From positions 1 to 64,000 of the forward strand of contig JACPPG010000017.1 of NCBI GenBank assembly GCA_016191115.1: a DNA stretch of 64,000 bases. Reading direction: 5' to 3'. Of this stretch, positions 7,623-56,023 are shown piece after piece; positions within the stretch are counted from its first letter, which is position 1; every line of letters begins with the position of its first letter. The notes below the pieces were generated by a model. That model was given only the letters and a program-made list of their open reading frames with translations. It was not told the DNA's origin and did no database searches. A program made the position numbers and the translations under genes. The DNA comes from Planctomycetia bacterium. Lineage in GTDB: Bacteria > Planctomycetota > Planctomycetia > Pirellulales > JACPPG01.

Positions 7623-7763
7623 CAGGGCCATTCTGTTTTTCAAAATGGCGAGGCGGGAAAATGGGACTGGCTCCGAGCATAAACAGCGCAAGTCCTTTCA
7701 GACCAACGTTGCGTCTCGGTGCCTGTCCACTTTCCCGCCGGTGCGCCGCCGGCAAGCTTGAAT
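7623..7763. mobile_element. MITE-like family 1, copy 1 (right end truncated)
   Basis: CAGGGCCATTCTGTTTTTCAAAATGGCGAGGCGGGAAAATGGGACTGGCTCCGAG...CGCCGGCAAGCTTGAAT; missing terminal TCTGTGAACGGCCCTG. Confidence 0.85.
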
Positions 7764-20969: not shown

Positions 20970-21851
20970 CTACGTCTCCGCGCTCTTGTCCCGTGGCACG
21001 ATCTGGCGCACAAGCTGGGCGAGAAACTTTGCCAGCGCGTCCGAGGCTACGAGCGCCTCTTCCTTCAGCCGCCACATGTCCTTGATGCTCGACGGCCGGC
21101 GGATGAGCGTGCCGGCGGCCGCGCCTAACCGACCGGCGGTCGAGGTCTGCATCACCAGGCGATCCAGCTCCTTGGGCAACTCGTCGTCCACGGCATCGCT
21201 GATGACGCGAATGGCCAGAAATCGCACCTTGTCCTGGCGGCAGACCTCGCCCACGGCCCACGATTCCATGTCGACGGCCAGCGCTTGATGCTGCTCTCCG
21301 AGCGCCTTCTTCTCGGCGGGCGCGCGGACGATCTTGTCGACTGTCAGGAGCCGGCCCACGTGGACCCGCGCAGCCGGAGCGTATTCGCCGCGGAGATCGA
21401 TCGACAGCGCACGTCCTGATACGTCGACAATCTCGCTGCCGATCACGATGCCGCCGCGCTCGACCGCTGAGTTCAATCCGCCGGCGAAGCCTGCCGAGAT
21501 GACCCACTCGGGCTTGTGTGCGCCGATGAGGGCCTGCGTGGCGCGGGCGGCCGCCAGGCGGCCCGCGCCTGATTCGACCACAACGACGCGGCGGCCGGAG
21601 AGCGTACCTTGGTGGGCGAGAAAGCCCTTGCCTTTCGTTGTGAGCGTGTCGGCCAGCAAGTCCTCTGTGCCGCCTGCCTCGGCCCCGAGCGCGAACACAA
21701 TCCCGACGTCGCAGCGCTCGGGAGTCGCGTCGCCGCTGTTTTCAGCTTGGGTCGACCCAGCCTGCTGCCGCGCCGCCTGCGCCACGGTTTCGCGCACGTG
21801 GGCCTGAGCCTGCTGCGAGAGCCACCGACGGACGAGCCAGGCAAGGTTCAT
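20970..21851 (-). CDS. MTA/SAH nucleosidase-like (nucleoside phosphorylase superfamily) protein
   Basis: VGIVFALGAEAGG, VVVVESGAGRLAAARATQALI, ISAGFAGGLN, ALAVDMESWAVGEVCRQ, RVISDAVDDELP. Confidence 0.8.
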   Translation of the reverse strand: MNLAWLVRRWLSQQAQAHVRETVAQAARQQAGSTQAENSGDATPERCDVGIVFALGAEAGGTEDLLADTLTTKGKGFLAHQGTLSGRRVVVVESGAGRLAAARATQALIGAHKPEWVISAGFAGGLNSAVERGGIVIGSEIVDVSGRALSIDLRGEYAPAARVHVGRLLTVDKIVRAPAEKKALGEQHQALAVDMESWAVGEVCRQDKVRFLAIRVISDAVDDELPKELDRLVMQTSTAGRLGAAAGTLIRRPSSIKDMWRLKEEALVASDALAKFLAQLVRQIVPRDKSAET

Positions 21852-21975
21852 GGGGGAGCGATTAGCGACTAGCCGGAGTTGGCGCCCACGAAGGGGCGCC
21901 TCTCTGGCATACGAGGTCCTCGCGGCAATTCTACCATGAGGCAGCGTGCGACGGCGAGAGATCGCGGTCTCCGGC

Positions 21976-22132
21976 CAGGGTCATTCTGTTTTTCAAAATG
22001 GCGAGGCGGGAAAATGGGACTGGCTCCGAGCATAAGCAGCGCAAGCCCTTTCAGACCAACGTTGCGTCTCGGTGCCTGTCCCACTTTCCCGCCGGTACGC
22101 CGCCGGCAAGCTTGAATCTGTGAACGGCCCTG
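21976..22132. mobile_element. MITE-like family 1, copy 2 (intact, 157 bp) with 10-bp target duplication
   Basis: Imperfect TIRs CAGGGTCATTC / GAACGGCCCTG; flanked exactly by GGTCTCCGGC at 21966-21975 and 22133-22142. Confidence 0.92.
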
Positions 22133-22202
22133 GGTCTCCGGCGAGCTGCCAGGCCGTCGAAGTGGGGCCGTAGTGTCGCGTCTGGCTTGAGAAGGTGGGT
22201 GT

Positions 22203-22276: not shown

Positions 22277-22313
22277 GCGCCTCATGGCACCTCCGCCCCC
22301 AGCAGCCGCGCGT

Positions 22314-23561
22314 TCAATGCGGCGGGAAGCGGTCGACGATCACGCCTTCGCGCGCTTCGCGGCCGGCAGCCAGGGTTTTGCTTTCCTGCCCCGACAGGGT
22401 CTGGTCGAAAAAGGCGCGCAGGTACTCGCGCGCCAAGGCCGTGATGTGGTTCTTCTTCTCTTCATCCGTCGGCAGGAAATACACGTCGTCGGCGAAACTT
22501 GCGTGCACGGCGCCCGCGATCTGCACGCGGTAAGCCCCGCCCGCGACCTTGGCCAGCGTGCCATCGAGGCGGTCGGTCGCTTCGGCCATCATTTTGCGCG
22601 CCTGCTCGTCGCTGATCTTCAACCGCGCGCGGGCCTCGGCGGGAATGCCTCGCAGCGGCTTGCCGAGATACATGCACGGTTGGCGGATCGCCGAACCATC
22701 GGCCGCGAGATACATGGGCATGCTGCGGGCCAGCCCATCGATGTTCACGGCTGCTTTGAACCGGCTGTCGAGCGCGCAGGCCTGGGTGGCCGCGACGCCG
22801 CCGACCGAGTGGCCGAACACGCCGACCTTGGCCAGGTCCAGCCGGCCGGTGAAGCGGCGGTCCTCGGCGTTGACCTGCGCGAGCTGGTCGAGCGCCGACA
22901 CGGCGTCGGCCGCGCGGATGTCGACCCGGTCGCGGTAGAACTGCATCATCGCCTGCTCGGCGTCCGGTGCATTCGGGTCGGGCCGTCGCCGCTCCCCCAC
23001 GGGCTCGATCACACGGCCGTCGGGAAACGCCTGCCCTCGGCCCTCGTAGCTGTGCTCGACCGCCGCCACGACGTAGCCGTGGCTGGCCAACTCCTCGGCC
23101 AGCGCCGTGTAGTCGTAGCTGGGCGTGCCGCCGCCAGGCAGGAGTACCAGCACCGGGTAGGGCGCGTCGCGCGGGGCAAGGGGCGCATCGTCGAAACTGT
23201 GCGTGGCCATGTTCGTCGCCGCCACGCGGTCGATCCCCTTGAGCATCGTCGACCAGTTGGCATAGGGGCAGTACGGACCCGTTTTGGCCGAGTCGTCGAC
23301 GCGGGCCGGATACCAGAGCGTGGCCAAAAACTCGCGCCGATCGGCCGGGTCCTCGGTCCAGGTCTCCGCCCGCTTCGGGTCGACCCAGACGAACGTCGTC
23401 CGCCCGCAGGCCGCCGGCCCATTCGGCGCTGGCAGCTTGTTGGTCTTGAACTGGGCAGAGGCGATTCCGGGCAGTGCCGTCGCGACGAAGGCGGCGAGGA
23501 CCGTGGTCCATCTTCGCACGTAGCAGCCTCTCTGCGCGGAAAACGATTTGGATTTCTGCAT
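22314..23561 (-). CDS. Secreted alpha/beta hydrolase, platelet-activating factor acetylhydrolase-like
   Basis: YPVLVLLPGGGTPSYDYTALAEELASHGYVVAAVEHSYEG, LAKVGVFGHSVGGVAATQACALD. Confidence 0.75.
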   Translation of the reverse strand: MQKSKSFSAQRGCYVRRWTTVLAAFVATALPGIASAQFKTNKLPAPNGPAACGRTTFVWVDPKRAETWTEDPADRREFLATLWYPARVDDSAKTGPYCPYANWSTMLKGIDRVAATNMATHSFDDAPLAPRDAPYPVLVLLPGGGTPSYDYTALAEELASHGYVVAAVEHSYEGRGQAFPDGRVIEPVGERRRPDPNAPDAEQAMMQFYRDRVDIRAADAVSALDQLAQVNAEDRRFTGRLDLAKVGVFGHSVGGVAATQACALDSRFKAAVNIDGLARSMPMYLAADGSAIRQPCMYLGKPLRGIPAEARARLKISDEQARKMMAEATDRLDGTLAKVAGGAYRVQIAGAVHASFADDVYFLPTDEEKKNHITALAREYLRAFFDQTLSGQESKTLAAGREAREGVIVDRFPPH

Positions 23562-23661
23562 GATTCTCGCTCGCTGGAGTACGTTGTGCGCGCGGCACCC
23601 CCGGGCTTTCGACCAGGTATTCGTTTCCAAGCGAGCTTTATTAGGTAGCTGCTTGAGGTAG

Positions 23662-36712: not shown

Positions 36713-36893
36713 CGTGGTCGGATCTCCTTCGGAGGACTCGATTGGCGGCTGCCCCGGCAAGTGTCGCCTGACGCCTTGCCGACGGTCAATCCACCTAAAG
36801 CGCGCCGGTTCCGCGCCGCGCGTGCGCTCGGATAGCCCGGGAGTCCTTTTTCAAACCCCGCGCGGGCCGTACAAGTGTCGGCCAATCCGGCTA

Positions 36894-37017
36894 CGGGAGA
36901 GCTGCAAAGTCCGGGGTCTGGCTCATTTTTCGGCGCACGCGGTTCTCAATTCTTCCGAAGGACCTTCGGCCGAAAAATGTGCCTGACCCCCTCTCCCAGG
37001 ACTTTGCAGTTCTCCTG
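36894..37017. mobile_element. MITE-like family 2, copy 1 (124 bp) with 11-bp target duplication
   Basis: Foldback CGGGAGAGCTGCAAAGTCCGGGGTCTGGCTCATTTTTCGGC...GCCGAAAAATGTGCCTGACCCC...GACTTTGCAGTTCTCCTG; flanked by CAATCCGGCTA at 36883-36893 and 37018-37028. Confidence 0.88.
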
Positions 37018-37028
37018 CAATCCGGCTA

Positions 37029-37185
37029 CAGGGCCATCCTGTTTTTCAAAATGGCGAGGCGGGAAAATGGGACTGGCTCCGAGCATAAACAGCGCAAGCC
37101 CTTTCAGACCAACGTTTCGTCTCGGTGCCTGTCCCACCTTCCCGCCGGTGCGCCGCCGGCAAGCTTGAATCTGTGAACGGCCCTG
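37029..37185. mobile_element. MITE-like family 1, copy 3 (intact, 157 bp) with 10-bp target duplication
   Basis: CAGGGCCATCCTG...GAACGGCCCTG; flanked by AATCCGGCTA at 37019-37028 and 37186-37195. Confidence 0.92.
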
Positions 37186-37297
37186 AATCCGGCTATCCGC
37201 GCGTTGCAACTGTTCACCCCCTGGTGGTATACTCAGCCTGCTATTTTTAGGCCATTCTCTACGGCTTGGCGGCCCTTCCTGAATCAAGGAGAGAGAG

Positions 37298-44189: not shown

Positions 44190-44330
44190 CAGGGCCATTC
44201 TGTTTTTCAAAATGGCGAGGCGGGAAAATGGGACTGGCTCCGAGCATAAACAGCGCAAGTCCTTTCAGGCCAACGTTGCGTCTCGGTGCCTGTCCCACTT
44301 TCCCGCCGGTGCGCCGCCGGCAAGCTTGAA
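44190..44330. mobile_element. MITE-like family 1, copy 4 (right end truncated)
   Basis: CAGGGCCATTCTGTTTTTCAAAATGG...GGCAAGCTTGAA then divergence. Confidence 0.85.
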
Positions 44331-45637: not shown

Positions 45638-45786
45638 CACGGCGTTCTGTTTTTCAAAATGGCGAGGCGGGAAAATGGGACTGGCTCCGAGCATAAACAG
45701 CGCAAGTCCTTTCAGACCAACGTTGCGTCTCGGTGCCTGTCCCACTTTCCCGCCGGTGCGCCGCCATCCAGCTCGAATCTGTGAAT
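45638..45786. mobile_element. MITE-like family 1, copy 5 (degenerate ends)
   Basis: TTCTGTTTTTCAAAATGGCGAGGCGGGAAAATGGGACTGGCTCCGAG core conserved; terminal CAGGGCC/GGCCCTG decayed. Confidence 0.85.
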
Positions 45787-53651: not shown

Positions 53652-53791
53652 CAGGGCCGTTCACAGATTCAAGCTTGCCGGCGGCGCACCGGCGGGAAAG
53701 TGGGACAGGCACCGAGACGCAACGTTGGTCTGAAAGGACTTGCGCTGTTTATGCTCGGAGCCAGTCCCATTTTCCCGCCTCGCCATTTTGA
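53652..53791. mobile_element. MITE-like family 1, copy 6 (inverted; left end truncated)
   Basis: CAGGGCCGTTCACAGATTCAAGCTTGCCGG...CCCGCCTCGCCATTTTGA; reverse complement of other copies. Confidence 0.85.
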
Positions 53792-55899: not shown

Positions 55900-56023
55900 C
55901 AGGAGAACTGCAACATCCTGGGAGAGGGGGTCAGGCACATTTTTCGGCCGAACGTCCTTCGGAAGAATTGAAAACGGCTTGTGCCGAAAAATGAGCCAGA
56001 CCCCGGACTTTGCAGCTTTCCTG
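55900..56023. mobile_element. MITE-like family 2, copy 2 (inverted, 124 bp) with about 9-bp target duplication
   Basis: CAGGAGAACTGCAA...GGGGTCAGGCACATTTTTCGGC...GCCGAAAAATGAGCCAGACCCC...GCAGCTTTCCTG; GCCTTCGCC at 55890-55898 (then C) and 56024-56032 (then T). Confidence 0.85.

Follow-up and report, generated by a model that had tools for sequence, protein, structure and literature searches.

A CAGGG-ended 157-bp MITE and its pairing with a second MITE in a planctomycete genome

The 64,000-nucleotide stretch of planctomycete DNA analysed here (the window) contains at 21976-22132 a short, non-coding element with CAGGG/CCCTG tips that is bracketed by two copies of the same 10-bp word, which raises the questions of what kind of element this is, how widely it has spread and which enzyme is likely to have moved it. 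An earlier note, made from the letters alone, had described a 157-bp foldback MITE with an exact 10-bp target duplication, one of six copies in the window, and had called its ends typical of ISAs1-family DDE transposons and proposed that it was a non-autonomous element mobilised in trans. Here we refer to the element as M1.

Structure, copy number and target duplications of M1

The length, CAGGG ends and foldback described for the element were borne out by direct reading and by its fold: it opens with CAGGGTCATTC, its end reads CAGGGCCGTTC when reverse-complemented, and its RNA fold is unusually stable (z = -4.96, with 0 of 200 shuffles equally stable). The terminal inverted repeats of the family read CAGGGCC[A]TTC and CAGGGCC[G]TTC, giving M1 the short, non-coding, inverted-end form of a bacterial MITE, and the 21976 copy shows four departures from the consensus of the family, such as CAGGGTC where the latter has CAGGGCC. 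The exact duplication is likewise present, GGTCTCCGGC directly adjoining the element on each side (Table 1). The copy lies between a phosphorylase-superfamily gene on the minus strand (20970-21851) and an ORF on the plus strand (22284-23648), apparently in a divergent intergenic region. No Rfam model matched anywhere in the window at gathering score, and no record of the phage and plasmid collections matched M1.

Table 1. Positions of M1, M2 and associated repeats in the window
Feature	Position	Strand	Details
Partial M1 (element positions 1-142)	7623-7763	+	Without duplication; BLASTN
Left target duplication GGTCTCCGGC	21966-21975		Direct sequence reading
M1, intact 157-bp copy	21976-22132	+	Matches the family consensus over its full length, 4 differences; BLASTN
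M1 inner foldback	22005-22093	+	Arms 22005-22030 and 22068-22093; two T.T mismatches common to stand-alone planctomycete hairpins
Right target duplication GGTCTCCGGC	22133-22142		Direct sequence reading
First of three AATCCGGCTA repeats	36884-36893		Others at 37019-37028 and 37186-37195
M2, 124 bp, directly upstream of the 37029 M1 copy	36894-37017	+	Array AATCCGGCTA-M2-(C)AATCCGGCTA-M1-AATCCGGCTA, spanning 36884-37195
M1, second intact copy	37029-37185	+	BLASTN
Partial M1 (1-141)	44190-44330	+	Without duplication; BLASTN
Partial M1 (9-149, 141 bp)	45645-45785	+	Flanks syntenic in four same-genus genomes; BLASTN
Partial M1 (18-157)	53652-53791	-	Without duplication; BLASTN
M2, second window copy, 124 bp	55900-56023	-	Duplication GCCTTCGCCC/GCCTTCGCCT, 9/10

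BLASTN also recovers the six window copies counted previously, two of them full length (7623, 21976, 37029, 44190, 45638 and 53652), with the one correction that the matching part of the 45638 copy actually begins at 45645. Conserved blocks from both sides of the 37029 copy lie together on one contig of the same-genus genome G001, which does not carry M1, and the two sides of the 21976 copy are on different contigs in relatives. Between 2200 and 54600 the gene order of the window is heavily rearranged relative to same-genus genomes, and the breaks fall both at several MITE copies and in other places. Synteny was dropped as a test of the partial copies because these genomes are so rearranged that breaks arise with or without MITEs.

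The window belongs to a 6.03-Mb draft genome (G000; 93 contigs, 94% complete), and a 2.43-Mb sample of it holds 207 copies of M1, which extrapolates to about 510 per genome. Pattern counts over the whole genome return 403 foldbacks with exact arms and 354 M1 left ends with up to three mismatches allowed, and we place the total at about 400-510 copies, or more than 1% of the genome. These dispersed copies are nearly identical, as is typical of a MITE, most lying 1-6 substitutions from the consensus, and M1 had no match in four same-genus genomes; both observations indicate that the burst was recent.

Exact 10-bp duplications flank 40 of the 86 full-length copies in the sample, exact duplications of 11-12 bp a further 5, and duplications with one mismatch a further 20. 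When at least 9 of 10 positions are required to agree, 60 of the 86 carry a duplication, against a mean of 0.8 and a maximum of 5 after flanks were shuffled between copies. Based on these counts, M1 is a DDE-type MITE with a target duplication of constant length, inserted with a 10-bp stagger. Its target sites have a weak G...C bias. The same genome carries an 87-bp CTTCTCCTCAATACCCTCG... repeat element, itself an M1 target, and IS66-like sequences with TGTAACTCTTTAGCCGTGTGG ends.

M2, mixed arrays and hybrid elements

A second MITE, M2, came to light when CAGG...CCTG pairs with 9-11-bp duplications were searched for blindly; it is 124 bp long with 19-bp tips (CAGGAGAACTGCAAAGTCC) and is present in 65 copies in the 2.43-Mb sample. 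M2 has all the subterminal positions of ISAs1 ends (A8, G11, C12 and A13), and its tip agrees at 15 of 19 positions with CAGGACGATTGCAAAGTCC, which is the repeat of an ISAs1-family element of 1305 bp from the same-genus genome G002. Its foldback, like that of M1, bears the TGGCT/TGCCT mismatch motif.

The two MITEs are frequently found side by side, with M1 within 40 bp of 27 of the 65 sampled M2 copies. Seventeen of the 18 close pairs (sought at 7-13 bp, with actual spacings of 9-12 bp) join M1 with M2, and in 16 of the 18 the spacer of about 10 bp repeats an outer flank (T), giving the arrangement T-M2-T-M1-T that is also seen at the 37029 window copy. Adjacent pairs number 29 versus about 5 under random placement, an expectation that confinement to intergenic DNA could raise, and for this reason we give weight to the exact spacing and the common 10-mer rather than to the pair count. 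That M1-M1 pairs are scarce may stem from the assembly.

Hybrids carrying one end of each MITE occur as well. The element at C76 12836-13002 has the left end of M1 opposite an end of M2 and is enclosed by a single duplication, GGGGCGCTACT, on both sides; at C15 3944-4214 the right end of M1 is combined with an end of M2, and the single duplication is GGCACGAGTC; and further hybrids with near-perfect duplications are present in C22 and C2. In addition, a composite at C65 16952-17240, M1-CGGTGCACAG-M2 with a 10-bp spacer, is bounded by GTTCTTCTCA, as if the pair had moved as a unit. The simplest reading of the hybrids is a single enzyme that accepts the tips of both M1 and M2, and their existence together with the ISAs1-like tip of M2 points to the ISAs1 family; one transposase of this type probably moves both. 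The stronger link between M1 and ISAs1 is an indirect one that passes through M2 and its hybrids with M1.

The likely transposase and competing explanations

The CAGGG termini and 8-10-bp duplications given in the earlier note as typical of ISAs1 elements fit what was measured: all 15 non-redundant ISAs1 elements measured in related and other genomes have CAGGG ends, with duplications of 10 bp in 13 and 9 bp in 2. Their tips read CAGGGC-R-A-W-Y-G-C, with G11 in 30 of 30 ends and C12 in 29 of 30. M1 has the CAGGG tips and a duplication within the 8-10-bp range of ISAs1 derivatives, and the expectation that ISAs1-type elements would share its outer ends held for CAGGGC and a few of the bases that follow and failed at G11-C12, M1 agreeing only at positions 1-6, A8 (left end) and T9-T10. 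Its left end has A8 followed by C11-T12, and its right end has G8 and C11-A12. The claim that M1 is non-autonomous and moved in trans is supported, with a transposase partner having matching ends traced only to the level of the family. G000 yielded no intact ISAs1 gene and no autonomous relative with M1-matching ends; all that we found of ISAs1 there is a decayed fragment and, at the edge of a contig, an N-terminal portion with tip CAGGGCGATTGCGCC, and the exact ISAs1 partner of M1 was not found. Most of the named genomes in which a related transposase turned up are Planctomycetota. Left ends resembling that of M1 (CAGGGCCAATCAGTTTTTCAAATTGG) are multicopy in G015 and G595, from other families of the order; some lie at contig edges, and they possibly represent an autonomous element or a sister MITE.

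We consider it probable, at roughly three chances in four, that M1 is a MITE with ISAs1-type tips on a pre-existing planctomycete hairpin and that it was mobilised along with M2 by an ISAs1-family DDE transposase. Such a transposase, whose gene would lie elsewhere or have since dropped out of the assembly, would cut at the CAGGG/CCCTG tips and join M1 to a target that is opened with a stagger of 10 bases, leaving the 10-bp direct repeat. The same enzyme would move M2 and accept hybrids having one end of each, and one element would often land precisely on the 10-bp duplication that adjoins the other, duplicating those 10 bp once more. The hairpin repeat would have been captured between the ISAs1-type tips. 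An element at L045 without an intact duplication counts against an ISAs1 explanation. More tentatively, and at somewhat less than an even chance, the transposase may target the junction of element end and duplication, which would yield the heterotypic T-M2-T-M1-T arrays, and the hairpin in both MITEs may be a planctomycete element with a function of its own that was captured and amplified.

If a DDE transposase of another family had moved M1, its CAGGG tips and 10-bp stagger would be coincidental, M2 alone would belong to ISAs1, and the hybrids would reflect loose end recognition or recombination. The absence from M1 of G11-C12, near-invariant in ISAs1 ends, fits such an enzyme, as does the finding that the ISAs1 genes found in G015 and G595 are not beside the listed M1-like left ends; we nonetheless regard it as unlikely, since the single-duplication hybrids and the composite most simply need one enzyme and 2.43 Mb of G000 yielded no convincing longer element that combines CAGGG ends with a 10-bp duplication. 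M1 could also be imagined as a REP/BIME-like hairpin with incidental CAGGG tips, spread by a single-strand (RAYT/IS200) transposase, given that other genera carry the foldback core by itself, with conserved mismatches as in REP hairpins, and that Y1 transposases are present in these genomes. Single-strand transposition leaves no target duplications, whereas 10-bp duplications adjoin CAGGG/CCCTG in most full copies, and among the listed Y1 genes of G020 and G024 none is on a contig with listed hairpins. On these two grounds we rejected a RAYT/REP origin of M1, which we hold to be extremely improbable; the same reading could apply to the stand-alone core.

A further alternative is that the repeats and their duplications are in part an artefact of assembly. 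Internal partial copies of M1 peak at 138-142 bp regardless of where they start, just as contig-edge fragments do, and this peak probably reflects a 157-bp repeat met by an assembler k-mer near 141; for some full copies without a duplication, moreover, the absent partner flank is located at a contig edge, which indicates mis-joins. Mis-joining, though, cannot yield full copies with exact duplications, and in four relatives the two flanks of the 45645 partial copy lie next to each other, leaving an artefact of this kind quite improbable. Partner flanks of the internal partial copies, sought elsewhere and as fixed-offset duplications, were not found, so we rejected mis-joining as the origin of these copies and explain the 138-142-bp peak only as probably assembly-related. 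The partial copies, the four in the window included, are therefore best described as probably assembly-related, and those four may be products of assembly rather than biological truncations. As a general caution, a repeat slightly longer than the assembler k-mer probably yields false "truncated" copies.

M1 among known elements and the stand-alone hairpin

M1 resembles the ISAs1 family, including its H-repeat relatives, in its CAGGG tips and its 9-10-bp (mostly 10-bp) duplications, and differs from it in having neither a transposase gene nor the conserved G11-C12. With Correia/NEMIS, ERIC, RUP, Nezha and Chunjie MITEs (PMC10969869) it has in common that it is short, non-coding, intergenic and of high copy number, with inverted ends, a foldback and duplications; by contrast with these, it combines a 10-bp duplication and ISAs1-type tips with precise 10-bp-spaced pairing with M2 and inter-family hybrids. 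Because the upper range of bacterial MITEs includes the 711 ERIC copies of Photorhabdus luminescens (PMC10969869), the number of M1 copies is high without being unique, and it places M1 among the larger bacterial MITE bursts. M1 is a real element of an ordinary kind, a MITE, whose scale and pairing habit are unusual, and we found no described MITE family in the Planctomycetota. It can be likened to a "parasite of a parasite". The 10-bp spacing and the hybrids open two questions to testing: whether the ends of resident elements serve as targets for ISAs1 transposases, and by what route a MITE whose tips are non-canonical comes to be the dominant copy.

In being a dispersed hairpin whose mismatches are conserved, the foldback core of M1 resembles the REP/BIME palindromes that accompany RAYT transposases (PMC3733652); M1 itself is set apart from them by its target duplications. 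Without CAGGG tips, the core is present in other genera of the order, as stand-alone hairpins of the form GGGAC-T-GGC-T-CC ... GG-T-GCC-T-GTCCC (L281, L286, L292, L294, L295, L297, L299, L300, L303, L305, L306 and others). Two stem positions are mismatched in all 14 of 14 stand-alone hairpins, mostly as T.T, or A.A if read from the opposite strand, and the remaining positions of the 12-bp arms are paired with a single exception; the outer stem shows covariation, and the loop measures 40-43 nt. A scan of loci fetched for other reasons found no mismatch hairpin, which indicates that the hairpin is not universal. M1 thus seems to consist of ISAs1-type tips around an older hairpin, and the conserved mismatches suggest that the hairpin is recognised by a protein. 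As a structure common to planctomycete genera, the conserved-mismatch hairpin is a lead in its own right, and hairpins with the same arms are found in three genomes outside the class (G225, G241 and G312).
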